A DNA stretch of 51,419 nucleotides, from positions 1 to 51,419 of the forward strand of contig JAAENP010000057.1 in NCBI GenBank assembly GCA_024224155.1, in the 5' to 3' direction. The first letter of the stretch is position 1. Every line of letters starts with the position of its first letter. Of this stretch, positions 42,954 to 49,793 are shown in pieces. The position numbers and the translations under genes are program-made. The DNA is from a bacterium. GTDB lineage: Bacteria > Acidobacteriota > Thermoanaerobaculia > Multivoradales > JAHEKO01. The notes below the pieces were generated by a model. The model searched no databases and had not been told where the DNA came from. It saw nothing but the letters and a program-made list of their open reading frames with translations.

Positions 42954-43877
42954 ATGCTAGGCTACTGCGTCGTCGGAGCGACACGCTCAGCCTTCTCGGG
43001 CGGCGTTGGTGAGAAGTCGACTGGAAACGTGCGCGACGCTCGAACGGAGTCACCAGCAGCATGCGCGGAGGAGAGCCGCGCGCAGCATCGCGCCGACTAC
43101 CATCGGTTCTGGTCCGATATCGGTTCCAACTTTCCGGACCTCGGTGGCGCCGAGAGCACGGCGTACTACCTGGAGAACGAGATCCGCCTCTTCGAGGAGA
43201 ATCTGCCCGAGCTCGAGGGTAAGACGGTCTTCAAAACAGACCTTTGGGACGAGGCCAAGAACACGAGGATCCTGCGCTGGGCCGTCACCGAAGGCGCCCA
43301 CGCCTTCGGTATCGATCTGTCCACACCCGTCGTCGAGCAGGCTCGGCGGGAGTTCGATAGACACGGGCTCCGGCTTGCAGCCGCGACCGCGGATGTTCGA
43401 GCGATCCCGTTTCGCGATGCCTGCTTCGACGCCGTCTATTCGATGGGCACGGTCGAGCACTTTGCCGAGACCGAAGAAGCCCTGGGCGAGATCTACCGCG
43501 TTCTCAAACCCGGCGGCCGCGCGATCATCGGAGTGCCCAACCGATGGGATCCGTTTCTACGACCGTTGTTGGTTGCGGTTCTGTATCGCCTCGGGCTCTA
43601 CGGCTACGGCTTCGAGAAGTCCTACTCGCCGCGCGGGCTACGGCAGATGCTCGAGCGCGTCGGCTTCACGGTGATCGCGACAACCGGGATCCTGCTCATT
43701 CCCGGCTGGCTACGGATGTTGGATCTCGCCGTTCACACTTGGCTGCGATCCTTTTCACGGCTCACCGCGGTACTGGTCAAGCCGTTCAGGTGGCTGTATC
43801 GCCGCTTCAGGGCTCTGCGGCGGCATGGCTACCTGCTCGTGATGATCACTACGAAGGTCGAGGCCGGAAATGACTAG
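42954..43877 (+). CDS. Class I SAM-dependent methyltransferase
   Basis: A methyltransferase of up to 307 residues; the first about 40 residues look unstructured, so the start may be later (for example GTG 43029). SAM-binding landmarks: GAHAFGIDLSTPVVEQARR (motif I-like, degenerate because the loop reads VTEGAHAFGID), RAIPFRDACFDAVYSMGTVEHF and RVLKPGGRAIIGVPN. The pattern is methyltransferase type 11. The hydrophobic/basic C-terminus may touch membranes. Acceptor unknown. It is convergent with speD. Confidence 0.8.
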   Translation: MLGYCVVGATRSAFSGGVGEKSTGNVRDARTESPAACAEESRAQHRADYHRFWSDIGSNFPDLGGAESTAYYLENEIRLFEENLPELEGKTVFKTDLWDEAKNTRILRWAVTEGAHAFGIDLSTPVVEQARREFDRHGLRLAAATADVRAIPFRDACFDAVYSMGTVEHFAETEEALGEIYRVLKPGGRAIIGVPNRWDPFLRPLLVAVLYRLGLYGYGFEKSYSPRGLRQMLERVGFTVIATTGILLIPGWLRMLDLAVHTWLRSFSRLTAVLVKPFRWLYRRFRALRRHGYLLVMITTKVEAGND

Positions 43878-43884
43878 CGGGCAC

Positions 43885-44271
43885 TCACGCGGACCGGATT
43901 GCCGCCGAGACCGGATCTTCCAGGTGGAGCTCTCGCCAGGTCGCAGAGTCGTCGGCAAAGCAGAACGCGGTGAGACTCTCGACCAGCTTCGCCGCCTTGG
44001 CGGCGTTCGAGTCCCGATAGTCGCAAACGTGCAGGTCGATCGTGGCGTAGCCCTCTTGAGCCCAGTGGTGGAGCACCAGATGCGACTCCGCCAGCACCCA
44101 GACGGCGGTCAGGCCGCCGTTTTCGAACTCGACCAGTCGGTGTCCCACAACCTCGAGCTCGGCGCGACGGACCAGCGCCGCAACCGCGCCTATCAAGCCG
44201 CTCGAGTCACCGACCGCCTCGATGAAGCCTCGGGAGACCGGCCCTTTGCCGACGAAGTGGTGTGATGTCAT
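43885..44271 (-). CDS. speD: S-adenosylmethionine decarboxylase proenzyme
   Basis: A 128-residue proenzyme of the small bacterial class. The self-cleavage site is the Glu-Ser pair in AESHLVLHHW, producing the pyruvoyl group on the Ser. The following EGYATIDLHVCDYRDSNAAK carries the catalytic Cys/His set. Decarboxylated SAM is the aminopropyl donor for spermidine. No spermidine synthase gene is next to it. Start ATG at 44271; it is 12 bases from the membrane-protein stop on the same strand. Confidence 0.9.
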   Translation of the reverse strand: MTSHHFVGKGPVSRGFIEAVGDSSGLIGAVAALVRRAELEVVGHRLVEFENGGLTAVWVLAESHLVLHHWAQEGYATIDLHVCDYRDSNAAKAAKLVESLTAFCFADDSATWRELHLEDPVSAAIRSA

Positions 44272-44283
44272 CGAAGCCGCATC

Positions 44284-46188
44284 TTACTCCCGGTCGGTGT
44301 CGAACGACCAGTGCAAGTCCCAGAGGGCGACGGTTAGTGCCCGCCGGTCGAGGTTGCCGAGCACCTCATCGGCCACGGTCGCCGGTTGTCGCGCACTGAG
44401 CTCGATGACGTGAGCGGCGGGAGCGAGCTCGAACGGCCCTATCGAGTGCGTGCCGAGCGCGGTACCGACTTCGATGACCGCGATCGGGTTTCTGTCCAGG
44501 CTCACGTCCAGCGTACGGGGCTCGGCAAAGCCGTGCAGCTCCAACTCGAGCTCCACGCTCAGAGTTTCGGTGGTGGTATTGGTCACGGTCAGCGATCCGT
44601 GTTGGCTCATCCAGCGATAGGTACGGTCCCCCTTGTACTCGCGCCAATGGAAACCGTCCGAAAGACTTGTCAAGAGCCGCAGCCCAGGCCGGTCGTCGAC
44701 CGCGAACAGGAAGGCATCGTCAAAGGTACCGACCGCTGTAAGCCCCTCGGGCGAAGCGTGACCCGAAAGCCAGTGACCGAAGGGACTCGGTCGTCGCACC
44801 AGCAGATGGCTGAAGCCCCGCTGCGCGAGCCCCGCGATGAATCCGGGATCGGCGCAGTCTTCGATGCCCGTGGGCGTCGAGATATCGGGCGCGAAGCGAA
44901 GGAAGAACGTAAGCTCCGCGCCACTTCCGGACGGCACGCAGTCCAGGGCTCGCACGGGCTCGGTCTGGTGCGCCAGCCAGCGGTGGGCGGATGTCGGCAG
45001 TACCTCTCGCCAGCGGAATGGCGGCAGCGGCGTCAGCTCGAGCAGCGTGAACGCGACCAGCGCGGTCGCCGAGAGCCTGGCGGCGGGCGAACGGCTGCGG
45101 GCCAGCCGTGCGGCTCCAATCGCCCCCAGGATCGCCAGCGCTAGAAATACCACCAACCCGAACCGCGCGTAGGCCCGGAACATGGGCAAGACCTCGTAGA
45201 TCAGAGCCGAGGGTGCCAGCAACGATGACCAACCCTCGTTTGCCGATGGCGCCAGCGAGAACCAGAAGGCGCCTCCCGCCGCGAGAACCAGAGCCGGGGC
45301 GGCGGCGAGGCCAGTAGCGCGGCTGCCTCGAAGGTACTCCACCAAGGCCACGGTGCTGAGCAGTAGAAGACCGGCGCCGACCGTGACCTGCTGCTCGAGC
45401 AGTCCGTCGAGCGCCTGCCCGGCCCAGAGGTCGCGGGTCCAGGAGCCGAAAAGCGGATGCTCGACCGGCGGCACCAGGTAACTCCACCAGCGTGCACCGT
45501 AGAGCAGGAGATCTTCACGGGGAAACCCGAGGGCACTCGGGTTCACGAGCACCGTCGGCGCGGTGAGTGCGAGGTGCGTCACTGCTGCAATACCGAGCGC
45601 CGCCAGCGTTGCTAGCGTCGTCGCGAGATTGCGAGCCCACGGCCGCCGCTCAAGCGCGCGTCCCAGGCAGAGCCCGAGGAGCACGAATGGCGTCACCACG
45701 GCCGCGATCAGGCCGTAGTAGTAGCTGGACAGCACGACGAGAGCTGTCGCCAAGGCCAGCAGCAGCGCCCGCGGCAGGCTCCACCGTTCAAAGCACAGCC
45801 ACAGTGCCAGCAGATAGAGGGGCAGCCATTGGGTCTGGGAACCGTGCGCGTGGTAAGCGGATTGGGCGACGTGAAAAGGAGCGAAGCCGTATAGGAGACC
45901 GGCCAGCCAGGCCGCCGGCCGGGAGGCGGCGAGACGAAACGCCAGCAGGTAGGCAAGAAGAGCGGCCAGGGGAAAGCTCGCGAGCACCACGATGTTGAGC
46001 GCTCGGATGCCGTCTCCGGTGACCCCGGCAACGGCGGCGCCCAGATAGTCGGTCGCCGGCTGGGTGAAGAGGCTCCACCCGCGTGGATTCTCGAACTGGT
46101 AGGCGACGATGAAAGGGTCGGCGTGCCGTCCGACGATCTCCGATCCGAAGAGTCGCGAGCCAGGGTCGCGCAACACCGGCGCGGCCAT
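44284..46188 (-). CDS. Polytopic membrane protein, GT-C/YfhO-like
   Basis: A membrane protein of at least 634 residues with about 11 predicted helices and a soluble C-terminal part. ENPRGWSLFTQPATDYLG and the loop pattern resemble GT-C or YfhO-like transferases; no catalytic residue can be fixed. The annotated ATG at 46188 has no ribosome binding site and cuts into the first hydrophobic stretch. In-frame translation continues 25 codons upstream to ATT 46263, directly after AGGAG, adding PLRWPEWLRGAGGIFVVATG. I therefore suspect the gene starts there. It follows the DsbA-like gene without a gap. Confidence 0.6.
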   Translation of the reverse strand: MAAPVLRDPGSRLFGSEIVGRHADPFIVAYQFENPRGWSLFTQPATDYLGAAVAGVTGDGIRALNIVVLASFPLAALLAYLLAFRLAASRPAAWLAGLLYGFAPFHVAQSAYHAHGSQTQWLPLYLLALWLCFERWSLPRALLLALATALVVLSSYYYGLIAAVVTPFVLLGLCLGRALERRPWARNLATTLATLAALGIAAVTHLALTAPTVLVNPSALGFPREDLLLYGARWWSYLVPPVEHPLFGSWTRDLWAGQALDGLLEQQVTVGAGLLLLSTVALVEYLRGSRATGLAAAPALVLAAGGAFWFSLAPSANEGWSSLLAPSALIYEVLPMFRAYARFGLVVFLALAILGAIGAARLARSRSPAARLSATALVAFTLLELTPLPPFRWREVLPTSAHRWLAHQTEPVRALDCVPSGSGAELTFFLRFAPDISTPTGIEDCADPGFIAGLAQRGFSHLLVRRPSPFGHWLSGHASPEGLTAVGTFDDAFLFAVDDRPGLRLLTSLSDGFHWREYKGDRTYRWMSQHGSLTVTNTTTETLSVELELELHGFAEPRTLDVSLDRNPIAVIEVGTALGTHSIGPFELAPAAHVIELSARQPATVADEVLGNLDRRALTVALWDLHWSFDTDRE

Positions 46189-46264: not shown

Positions 46265-47086
46265 CTAGCTCCTGGCCTCTTCGGGGATCGGCAGGTTGAG
46301 ACGCGTCAACTCCTCGTTAATGAGCTTGGCGAAACCGCTGAAGGGCTGGGCCCCTCGCAGGTAGCGGCCGTTGACGAAGAAGGCCGGTGTCCCGGTCAGC
46401 TGCATCGACCGAGCCTCTGCCGTGTCCTCGTCCACGGTCTTCTTGTTGCTGAGATCCTTGAAGTCCTGTTCGAACTTGGCGACGTCGAGGCCGAGGTCTC
46501 GAGCATGTTGAACCAGCTGGTCGTACTTCACGTTCTTTTGGTCGGCGAAGAGCTTGTCGTGGTATTCCCAGAACTTGTTCTGCTTGTGCGCGGCTTCCGA
46601 CGCCACATGGGCCGCCGGCGCTGCCGGGTGGAGTGACGGCAGCGGGAAATGCTTCCAGACTACTCGTACGTTGCCGCCGTAGACCTCTTGGATTCGTTCG
46701 AGCGTCGGATTCACGCGCGAGCAGAACGGGCACTGAAAATCCGAGAACTCGGCAATCGTGATGGGTGCGCTGGACGGCCCCTTTACCGGGGAGCCCGAGG
46801 TTTTGATCGGATAGACCCGGTTCGGATCGGGCCCTCGTCGCGCGGGTTGTGCCGCCGGCGCCGCCTGTGCCGGAGCCTGTATCGGGCCCGAACTCTTGAG
46901 CGCGGCGACTCGATCGTCGATCTCTCCGAGCTCGTTCTGGAGCGCATCGAGAGAGCGCATGTTCGTAAACGAGATCATGAGTACGACCACGATCCCCGCC
47001 AGCGTCGCCAGACCGATGGCGTCAACGCCGGATTGCGGTGCGGGAGGTGGTGCCGGTCTAGGTGTTTGTGGTTTGTTCTTGGCCAT
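46265..47086 (-). CDS. DsbA-family thiol-disulfide oxidoreductase, membrane-anchored
   Basis: A 273-residue protein: Pro-rich cytosolic start, a membrane helix at about 24-42, a coiled linker, then a thioredoxin_4/DsbA domain. The active site is CPFC (Cys119, Cys122) in FSDFQCPFCSR, and the cis-Pro loop is GTPAFFVNG. HFPLPSLHPAAPAAHVA is typical of DsbA/DsbG-like periplasmic oxidoreductases. It likely forms or isomerises disulfides in exported proteins, which would suit the Cys-rich secreted protein 3 kb away (inference). It starts 6 bases after the vWA gene. Confidence 0.88.
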   Translation of the reverse strand: MAKNKPQTPRPAPPPAPQSGVDAIGLATLAGIVVVLMISFTNMRSLDALQNELGEIDDRVAALKSSGPIQAPAQAAPAAQPARRGPDPNRVYPIKTSGSPVKGPSSAPITIAEFSDFQCPFCSRVNPTLERIQEVYGGNVRVVWKHFPLPSLHPAAPAAHVASEAAHKQNKFWEYHDKLFADQKNVKYDQLVQHARDLGLDVAKFEQDFKDLSNKKTVDEDTAEARSMQLTGTPAFFVNGRYLRGAQPFSGFAKLINEELTRLNLPIPEEARS

Positions 47087-47092
47087 TGCCAG

Positions 47093-48232
47093 TCACTCCT
47101 CGGGAAAGTCGAAGCCATTCTCGCGGGCCTGTTCGCGAATCGTCCCGCGCACCACCTCGTCGAACGATCTCGGATTGCGGGCTCCGAAGGCGGCCGTTCG
47201 GTTCGCGACCGCGCGCCGCCGCTCGATTCCCAGCTCGGCGATACGTTGCCGCAGCTCCAGCCGGGCCTCTCGCATCTCATCTACGTAGAGAAAACGCTCC
47301 TCGGTCGTCATTCCGCTCATCTCTCGAGGGAGCTCGCGAACCGCAATCGAGGCCAGGTCGACGCGGCCTTGATCCACGGAGTTGACCAGGTCCCAATCGG
47401 GCGAGTAGAGCGGACTCGCTTTGGTCATGGCCCGGGTCGCGGCCACCGCGGCGCCGAGGCTGGAGGCGTTTTCGTCCTCCTTGGCGAGGCTCCTGCGCCA
47501 GGCCTTGCCCTCCTTGCCGACGGGGATGTAGGTTTTGTTCATCAGGGCTCCGAGCTCGCTCAGGCTGTTGTCGAACCTGGTCGGCACCACGACCGTCGGA
47601 GTCGTGTGATCGATCGCGGTGAACTGTCCATCGGCCAGCTGCGCCATCTCGCGCCAGCTGGCGGCGTCGGCGTGGTCGGGCTGTCCGCAGAAGATCGCGC
47701 TGAGCAGGATGTTTCGCTCTCGGGCCGCCTCGCTCATCTCGCGGAAGTCGACGTCGAGCTCTTGATCCGCCGACTCGTTGCCAGCAACAAAGAGGAGCTT
47801 GAGAGCGTTCTCGGATTCGGACCATTCCAGCCGCTCCAGCGCGGTCTGAATGGCCCTTCCGACGTATTCGTTGGCGCCTCGGCTCTCGAGAGCGAACAGC
47901 CGCTCCGAAACCAGATCCAAGTCGGCGGTCAGGCCGGTTTCGATACGTCCCCATCCGTCGGCCGGGCTGCCCGTCTGATTGCCGTAGGTGAGGATCGCGA
48001 CCCGCAAGTTCGGTGTCGGCTCGGCCTCCGCCAGATCATTGATGATCTCCCAGATTTTGATCCGAGTGGAGTCGATCAACCCCCTCATGGTGCCGCTGGT
48101 GTCCAACGAGATCACCAGGTCGATCGGTTCTCCTTGCGGTGCGACCGAAGCCGAGAGAGCCGCCTCTGAGATCAGGCACGCCCCTGCCAAGAGGAGCGCG
48201 ATTCCAATTCCTGGCAGCTGACGCGCGATCAT
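47093..48232 (-). CDS. Exported von Willebrand factor type A domain protein
   Basis: The 379-residue protein has a signal peptide (residues about 1-28). A vWA domain follows from about residue 37: LVISLDTSGTM supplies the MIDAS motif (DxSxT variant), and LLFVAGNESADQELD a later metal-loop residue. A helical C-terminal half (REARLELRQRIAELGIERRR) comes after. The domain likely mediates metal-dependent protein contacts in the periplasm. The organisation vWA, DsbA-like, membrane protein on one strand with minimal gaps suggests an operon. Confidence 0.85.
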   Translation of the reverse strand: MIARQLPGIGIALLLAGACLISEAALSASVAPQGEPIDLVISLDTSGTMRGLIDSTRIKIWEIINDLAEAEPTPNLRVAILTYGNQTGSPADGWGRIETGLTADLDLVSERLFALESRGANEYVGRAIQTALERLEWSESENALKLLFVAGNESADQELDVDFREMSEAARERNILLSAIFCGQPDHADAASWREMAQLADGQFTAIDHTTPTVVVPTRFDNSLSELGALMNKTYIPVGKEGKAWRRSLAKEDENASSLGAAVAATRAMTKASPLYSPDWDLVNSVDQGRVDLASIAVRELPREMSGMTTEERFLYVDEMREARLELRQRIAELGIERRRAVANRTAAFGARNPRSFDEVVRGTIREQARENGFDFPEE

Positions 48233-48308: not shown

Positions 48309-49793
48309 TCACGAGGACTTCGAAGAGCTCTCTCCGGAAGCCTGTTGGCGTACCGCGACGGATTCGGCGGCGCTGTCTACCGCTCGGCCGATTCGGGGAC
48401 GGGCCGTGAACCAAATCAGCAGCAGTGGCACTGCGATCGACATGGCGCGAATGGCCGCGATGGGAAGTTCTACGCCAGTATGAATAGCCAACTCGCCGAG
48501 AAGAATGACTTCACCTCCTTGTAGCAGCGCGAGTATGCCCACTCCCAGCGCGAGACGGTGGTCGCGAAACGGCCGAACCAACGCAACCCACATTGCCGCG
48601 AAGAGTGCGAACTGAAACGCCGGCATCAAAGAGACAACCCCTTGAACATCGGTGTAAGTATGCCCCAGGTGGAAAGACTCCAGCCGCTGGGCCGCGGGCC
48701 AGAGCCAAACCCGCCCCAATACACCGACAACAACTCCGGCGGTCGTGCCGGTCACAAGGGCTCGAATCGCGAGCAGGCTCTTTGAGCTCGAGCCCTGCTC
48801 AGCCGGAAGGCGGTAGGCCGTCCAGATGACGATCGCGGCGGCCGTAAGCACCTGGTAGAAGGCGTGAATGGCGATTGCGTAGGAACCGACGATCGTGGCG
48901 GGGATCGCCAGTATCAGCAAACGGGCGCTTCCCAGGAAGACAAAGAGCGGTAGCGCTGCCAGACTTGCTAGGGCTTTCTGGCCGGAGGAGACTGGCAGGA
49001 AGAGAGCCGCGGCCAGGTAGACCGGCAGGAGCGGCGTCACGACACAGGCCGGAGTCACGAGCCACGCTCCGTGGGGGGTCGTCAGCAAATTGTCTGCGAC
49101 CTCGACCTCAACTCCCAGGGTCTTCATGAACGCCGCGGCGACAAGCGTCGACCAGCGAGCGATCTCCAGAACCACAGTGCTCCTCATCAACCAGGGAGCC
49201 AGGAGGAAGAACAGAAGTACGAAGAGGCAAAGCACGCCCAGGAACTGCAAGGTATTCTGCGGCGGAAACGAGCTTCTCTCCTCCGGGGGAATCGACGTTC
49301 CCTCCTGCGACCGGAGCGAAGAGCCCATCCAGATGAACACATATCCGGCGGCGACTGCGATCAAGAGCGCCGGCCAAAGGTAAATGTGGAGGAAAGAGAA
49401 GACATCGCCCTGATCGGCGACCATCGAGAGCGAGCCGATTCGAACCAGGTTGAGGAGGAGAATGATCCCCAGGCCCAACGCGCAGCCCAGGATCCTTCTT
49501 CGCCAACGCACCGGAAAGGCCAGTATCGCGCCCAGGACCAGCGCCATCGGATCCGCCCCCGTGCAGCTGAGCCCGACGAACACCGAGCTTGGCTCGGTGC
49601 CGGCCAGTGTGCACGCGATGCGGCCCTGAAGCCCGGAAAAAGGGAGCAGAACGTTGACCTGAACCCAGGGAATCCGGACGACCGCAAAGAGTGCCAGCAC
49701 CCAGAGCGAAGCCCTGAATACGAACGCGACGCCTGAGTTCCGACCGAGAAGTGGCCCGGATGTGCGCGAGTCGCCGGACGCTGATTCTCCCAT
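48309..49793 (-). CDS. Exosortase-family membrane protein with duplicated catalytic triad
   Basis: From the ATG at 49793 the product is 494 residues; a longer in-frame extension to 50351 is rejected because it is Arg/Ser-rich and overlaps the divergent gene. It has two exosortase-like halves. Half 1: Cys77 in VGLSCTGADP, Arg118 in LLNLVRIGSL, His136 in FSFLHIYLW. Half 2: Cys250 in VTPACVVTPL, Arg291 in FLGSARLLIL, His310 in AIAIHAFYQVL. The Cys-Arg spacing is 41 in both halves and Arg-His 18 and 19. About 13 membrane helices in total. Exosortases cleave C-terminal sorting signals of exported proteins. Confidence 0.75.
   Translation of the reverse strand: MGESASGDSRTSGPLLGRNSGVAFVFRASLWVLALFAVVRIPWVQVNVLLPFSGLQGRIACTLAGTEPSSVFVGLSCTGADPMALVLGAILAFPVRWRRRILGCALGLGIILLLNLVRIGSLSMVADQGDVFSFLHIYLWPALLIAVAAGYVFIWMGSSLRSQEGTSIPPEERSSFPPQNTLQFLGVLCLFVLLFFLLAPWLMRSTVVLEIARWSTLVAAAFMKTLGVEVEVADNLLTTPHGAWLVTPACVVTPLLPVYLAAALFLPVSSGQKALASLAALPLFVFLGSARLLILAIPATIVGSYAIAIHAFYQVLTAAAIVIWTAYRLPAEQGSSSKSLLAIRALVTGTTAGVVVGVLGRVWLWPAAQRLESFHLGHTYTDVQGVVSLMPAFQFALFAAMWVALVRPFRDHRLALGVGILALLQGGEVILLGELAIHTGVELPIAAIRAMSIAVPLLLIWFTARPRIGRAVDSAAESVAVRQQASGESSSKSS

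Follow-up and report, generated by a model that had tools for sequence, protein, structure and literature searches.

The locus and its neighbouring genes

The window analysed here is a stretch of 51,419 nucleotides that makes up the whole of contig C57 in a 5.7 Mb draft genome, and it carries a two-domain exosortase gene close to one end. On the minus strand, positions 48309-49793 form a single uninterrupted frame of 494 codons encoding a membrane protein of 494 residues; the stop codon is at 48309-48311, and a GGAG motif resembling a ribosome-binding site lies 10 bases 5' of the ATG. The protein had been described, in a sequence-only reading, as a tandem-duplicated exosortase with two Cys/Arg/His triads. 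We found the triads exactly as described there (C77/R118/H136 and C250/R291/H310, with spacings of 41 and 18 residues in the first half and 41 and 19 in the second), and the Arg residue does stand in a different context in each half, NLVR in the first and GSAR in the second. The features of the protein and of the genes around it are listed in Table 1.

Table 1. Features of the two-domain exosortase gene and its surroundings, in window positions.
Feature	Position	Strand	Evidence
Class I methyltransferase (Methyltransf_11), conserved partner	42954..43877	+	Homologues in most of 31 two-domain neighbourhoods
S-adenosylmethionine decarboxylase-like protein, conserved partner	43885..44271	-	PF02675 56.5 bits; in most of 31 neighbourhoods
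STT3-like (GT-C type) membrane protein, conserved partner	44284..46188	-	Weak, sub-threshold STT3 match; homologue in roughly half of 31 neighbourhoods
DsbA/thioredoxin-like protein	46265..47086	- (as exosortase)	Next to exosortase solely within the genus and in a single nearby genome
Exported protein with von Willebrand A domain, immediately downstream of exosortase	47093..48232	-	Adjoins exosortase in three genomes from the genus
Two-domain exosortase gene, 494 aa	48309..49793	-	Open frame; same-length homologues in 6 family genomes and 30 of another class
Third conserved membrane region, residues 336-466	48396..48788	-	Asp382, Gln384, Arg449 and Pro456 invariant 32/32
Exosortase domain 2, residues 178-332, divergent	48798..49262	-	PF09721 26.5 bits alone (cut-off 25.7); profile E 5e-13; in register with domain 1
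His310, domain 2	48864..48866	-	Invariant 32/32
Arg291, domain 2	48921..48923	-	Invariant 32/32; missing from one deleted copy (L065)
Cys250, domain 2	49044..49046	-	Invariant 32/32
Exosortase domain 1, residues 20-162, XrtH-like	49308..49736	-	TIGR04177 63.8 bits; TIGR04178 47.7 bits (cut-off 23)
His136, domain 1	49386..49388	-	Invariant 32/32
Arg118, domain 1	49440..49442	-	Invariant 32/32
Cys77, putative domain 1 nucleophile	49563..49565	-	Invariant 32/32
Exported DUF11/DUF7507-type repeat protein, start only, divergent from exosortase, cut by contig end	49957..51419	+	Open frame; full-length homologue in L003

Three of the neighbouring genes, those for the methyltransferase, the AdoMet decarboxylase-like protein and the STT3-like protein, recur near two-domain exosortases from two classes; all of them are present in the window (42954-46188). 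In two genomes (G004 and G578; L036:4743-6959 and L102:7634-9853) the methyltransferase shares one frame with the two-domain exosortase, as a fusion at the C-terminus of the latter. The AdoMet decarboxylase-like protein retains an ESH...H...C pattern, which is known from active AdoMet decarboxylases. Conservation of the DsbA-like and von Willebrand A genes (46265-48232) is limited to the genus and its near relatives. Neither the linked gene cassette nor the third membrane region had been noticed in the earlier reading.

Two exosortase domains in one protein

When domain 1 was scanned alone it matched the exosortase/archaeosortase signature TIGR04178 at 47.7 bits, well over the cut-off of 23, which places it in the superfamily. 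Its best single family was XrtH (TIGR04177), at 63.8 bits under a cut-off of 86; matches to Exosortase X (NF046081; 47.2 bits, cut-off 170) and XrtM (TIGR04300; 47.3 bits, cut-off 125) likewise fell below threshold. Domain 2 of the window protein, again scanned alone, reached 26.5 bits on PF09721, above the cut-off of 25.7, and gave a weak EpsH-type match (TIGR02602, 18-19 bits, below cut-off). Two results count against the reading of the gene that we prefer below: domain 2 scored only 10.8-14.9 bits on TIGR04178, short of 23, and the whole protein reached 23.1 bits on PF09721, slightly under 25.7. For the whole protein, the sole signature above cut-off was the general one-domain exosortase/archaeosortase one. 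In three relatives, TIGR04178 cleared the cut-off on either half: G537 (49.4 and 28.4 bits), G561 (45.5 and 24.2 bits) and G536 (31.9 and 23.0 bits). Scored separately by HMM, both halves, and not one of them only, are therefore recognised as exosortase.

Comparison of one half with the other by BLASTP gave no in-register match, and profile methods were required. In a profile-profile alignment of the halves, each triad residue of one half was superposed on its counterpart in the other (94% probability, P ~1e-7). A profile of domain 2 matched 36 single-domain exosortases, with a best E of 5e-13, and matched no non-exosortase among 3,039 neighbouring frames. An alignment made without supervision from 17 first and 17 second halves together with 50 single-domain exosortases likewise put the triad residues in the same three columns. 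We conclude that both halves are homologous exosortase domains, in register and with conserved triads. The BLASTP result would fit a chance match between hydrophobic sequences, but that explanation, to which we give almost no credence, is contradicted by the in-register profile alignment, by the curated signature on both halves in relatives and by the 36 exosortases against zero unrelated frames that the domain 2 profile retrieved.

The two-domain form recurred when relatives were surveyed: the same protein was found in 6 of the 18 genomes of the window's own family and in 30 of the 193 genomes searched from another Acidobacteriota class. Among the families of the window's class that were searched, the full-length form was absent outside its own family; it is present in further families of the phylum. 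No relatives of the protein were seen in the plasmids and viral contigs searched, and a wider scan of genome contigs, which used the single window protein as query rather than a full-length profile, matched one relative. Three irregular copies were also seen. In one (L065, G570:C33) an in-frame deletion of ~50 residues takes out Arg291, so that site 2 was either lost naturally or misassembled; in another (L066, G637:C11) a frameshift, real or produced by assembly, puts the two domains into separate overlapping frames; and the third (L038:8603-9139, G002:C104) is a remnant second copy, comprising only the first ~80 residues, on the opposite strand beside a methyltransferase gene.

Across 32 full-length proteins, with a median pairwise identity of 39%, just 23 positions are invariant and these include all six triad residues. 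The earlier suggestion that the second half has diverged holds across the family. It lacks the Asn three positions before the Arg and the Gly after the Cys, both of which are kept in domain 1, and its Cys is followed by V/I-x-T-P, not S/T-G. This context is itself conserved, as C-(V/I/L)-x-T-(P/A) against C-(S/T)-G in the first half. The two-domain form, which recurs in dozens of Acidobacteria, is a real, conserved and new version of a known enzyme family. In the literature searched, outside of which many subscription papers lie, we found no earlier description of two-domain exosortases, and we claim no priority.

Origin, third membrane region and predicted topology

In a tree of the domains the first halves grouped as a clade with support 99 and the second halves as a separate one with support 100, with branches of 1.03 changes per column for domain 1 and 2.07 for domain 2. 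A tree in which the halves are sisters was 1.6 log units worse and was neither preferred nor rejected (p-AU 0.4), so that duplication and fusion are indistinguishable and, judged from the sequences, a fusion of two exosortases would be as possible as an internal duplication. What stands of the tandem-duplicated exosortase first proposed is therefore the pair of complete domains, given the HMM scores, the profile alignment and the family-wide conservation, whereas the duplication itself is left undecided by the trees. One version of the fusion reading goes further and holds that two already different exosortases were joined, so that the halves recognise two different signals. We regard it as possible, though somewhat short of probable. 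Domain 1 lies nearer than domain 2 to XrtH/XrtX-like single-domain proteins in the tree, with weak support, and the best NCBIfam matches of the two halves are not the same; however, the sister-halves tree is worse by a mere 1.6 log units, and long branches meet at the point in question, which makes the placement unsafe.

The region that follows domain 2 (residues ~336-466) had no significant match in Pfam or NCBIfam. It was also considered as a third, degenerate exosortase repeat, an idea that profile alignment did not support (<1% probability). For structure prediction, a first model from 6 sequences was poor (pLDDT 67.5) and was replaced by an AlphaFold2 model from 12 sequences, which is nearly all-helical with a mean pLDDT of 78.6. 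The modelled helix order is common to both halves: two helices, the Cys loop, a short helix, the long Arg helix and a helix starting near the His. In the third region the model gives a helix order like that of the exosortase domains, and the invariant residues lie in loops free of Lys/Arg or at helix starts; this region may bind the acceptor or stabilise the pair of domains. The Cys- and His-bearing loops are devoid of Lys/Arg, which is present in most of the alternate loops; this positive-inside pattern would fit a position of both triads on the outer side of the membrane.

Searches of solved structures brought up no relative. By sequence there was none, the weak acetylcholine-receptor rows being due to chance; Foldseek with the model gave no hit down to an E of 0.001, and the Z values from VIA-align 2 were only middling (best 6.6), which says little for a helical bundle.

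Sorting signals and the proposed working of the protein

Proteins with the IPTL-CTERM signal (TIGR04174) accompany the two-domain exosortase. In the second class they were found above cut-off in 11 of the 30 genomes with the protein and in 2 of the 163 without it (Fisher P 1.3e-8, a value that ignores shared ancestry), and in the window's own family in 4 of 6 with it and 0 of 12 without it (P 0.005, with the same disregard of ancestry). The two-domain protein is the only TIGR04178 match in 5 of the 6 own-family genomes that carry it. Near the exosortase, 10 of 31 neighbourhoods have a gene whose product ends in a VPTL motif, a hydrophobic helix and arginines, for example VPTLPQWGALLLAAGLLGLGYLRLRRRARAE, and the VPTL-tailed neighbours that we scanned were ice-binding-like exported proteins. 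It can be seen that the pairing with IPTL-CTERM proteins expected of XrtH is present here as both co-occurrence and adjacency, and that there are partner proteins with the C-terminal motif-helix-Arg signal that is expected across the superfamily.

Other observations, besides the altered Cys and Arg contexts of domain 2, count against our preferred reading. In 19 of the 30 second-class genomes with the protein there was no IPTL match above cut-off, a figure to be taken with the fact that the IPTL-CTERM model misses variants such as VPALP or VPTLPQV. The window's own genome has one IPTL-CTERM match above cut-off, on C293, a different contig from that of the exosortase, and it also encodes a single-domain exosortase on C22, next to a signal-bearing gene that goes with it. 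The latter locus (L106, C22:9000-21632) has a gene ending VPDLSTLGLLLVLGAILAIGLYSRRRRGEAGGR followed by the single-domain exosortase, and is a second sorting pair. As for the repeat protein that is cut by the contig end in the window, its full-length counterpart in a genome of the same genus (L003, G002) adjoins the exosortase, is without a C-terminal sorting tail and is followed by a VPTL-tailed gene.

Domain 1 resembles XrtH both as its best family match and in the class of sorting signal found in neighbouring genes and genomes. XrtH differs, apart from the score of 63.8 bits against a cut-off of 86, in being a single-domain protein with a model of 158 positions, whereas the 494 residues here include another exosortase domain as well as the third membrane region. 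With the wider superfamily (TIGR04178, PF09721) the protein shares the Cys/Arg/His triad, a predicted helical membrane fold and co-occurring C-terminal sorting signals, but proteins of the families described so far carry a single triad and the window protein has two. Exosortase A/EpsH (TIGR02602), to which domain 2 is weakly similar, likewise has a single triad, and its signal is PEP-CTERM.

Taken together, we consider it likely that the gene encodes an XrtH-like, IPTL-CTERM-sorting two-domain exosortase, in which the second catalytic domain has diverged and the third membrane module is conserved; its topology, chemistry, domain 2 activity and division of labour are what we infer. Exported proteins whose C-terminal end combines a VPTL/IPTL motif with a membrane helix and an arginine cluster would be held in the inner membrane after secretion, and the active sites would lie on the outer side of this membrane. 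The canonical half, domain 1, would cut the sorting signal with Cys77, helped by Arg118 and His136, and would form a thioester with the new C terminus before handing it to an acceptor. Domain 2 would add another working thiol site to this process, serving a second acyl-transfer step or a second specificity. Its own Cys/Arg/His are under the same strict conservation; domain 2 is most likely such a working site and not a dead half, and we lean towards the site being catalytic.

Alternatively, domain 1 is the enzyme and domain 2 a non-catalytic partner (a substrate clamp, an internal-dimer scaffold or a regulator) that keeps its triad for structure or binding. The CxG and NxxR contexts that mark canonical exosortases are missing from domain 2, its branch is far longer, and its mean column identity is lower than that of domain 1 (65% against 72%). 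However, all three of its polar triad residues are invariant in the 32 proteins, and pseudo-enzymes commonly lose their catalytic residues. We judge a non-catalytic domain 2 unlikely.

A more elaborate proposal builds on archaeosortase A (TIGR04125), for which it has been proposed that a Cys thioester is resolved by the amine of the lipid archaetidylethanolamine (PMC7157517). That enzyme would share its catalytic logic with the two-domain exosortase, but it is single-domain, archaeal and has a different signal. By analogy with this thioester/amine model, the linked cassette might supply an amine acceptor for the exosortase. The protein would then be a two-site relay sortase, in which cleavage of the VPTL signal falls to domain 1, and domain 2 takes over the product or completes its transfer to an amine-bearing acceptor made by the cassette. 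Here the AdoMet decarboxylase would yield decarboxylated AdoMet as an aminopropyl donor for the methyltransferase-fold enzyme, and the STT3-like protein would act on a lipid or glycan carrier. We think this relay improbable. The literature searched contained nothing on XrtH or on a link to AdoMet decarboxylase.

The two-domain architecture escapes NCBIfam and Pfam, whose models cover one domain. For bacterial exosortases, the target to which substrates are attached and the transfer step are poorly known. A natural form with two intact triads lets single-site mutants separate cleavage from transfer in one protein, and the cassette of AdoMet decarboxylase, methyltransferase and STT3-like protein provides candidate genes for the exosortase acceptor. 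If the relay were true, the genes linked to this exosortase would mark out its acceptor pathway.
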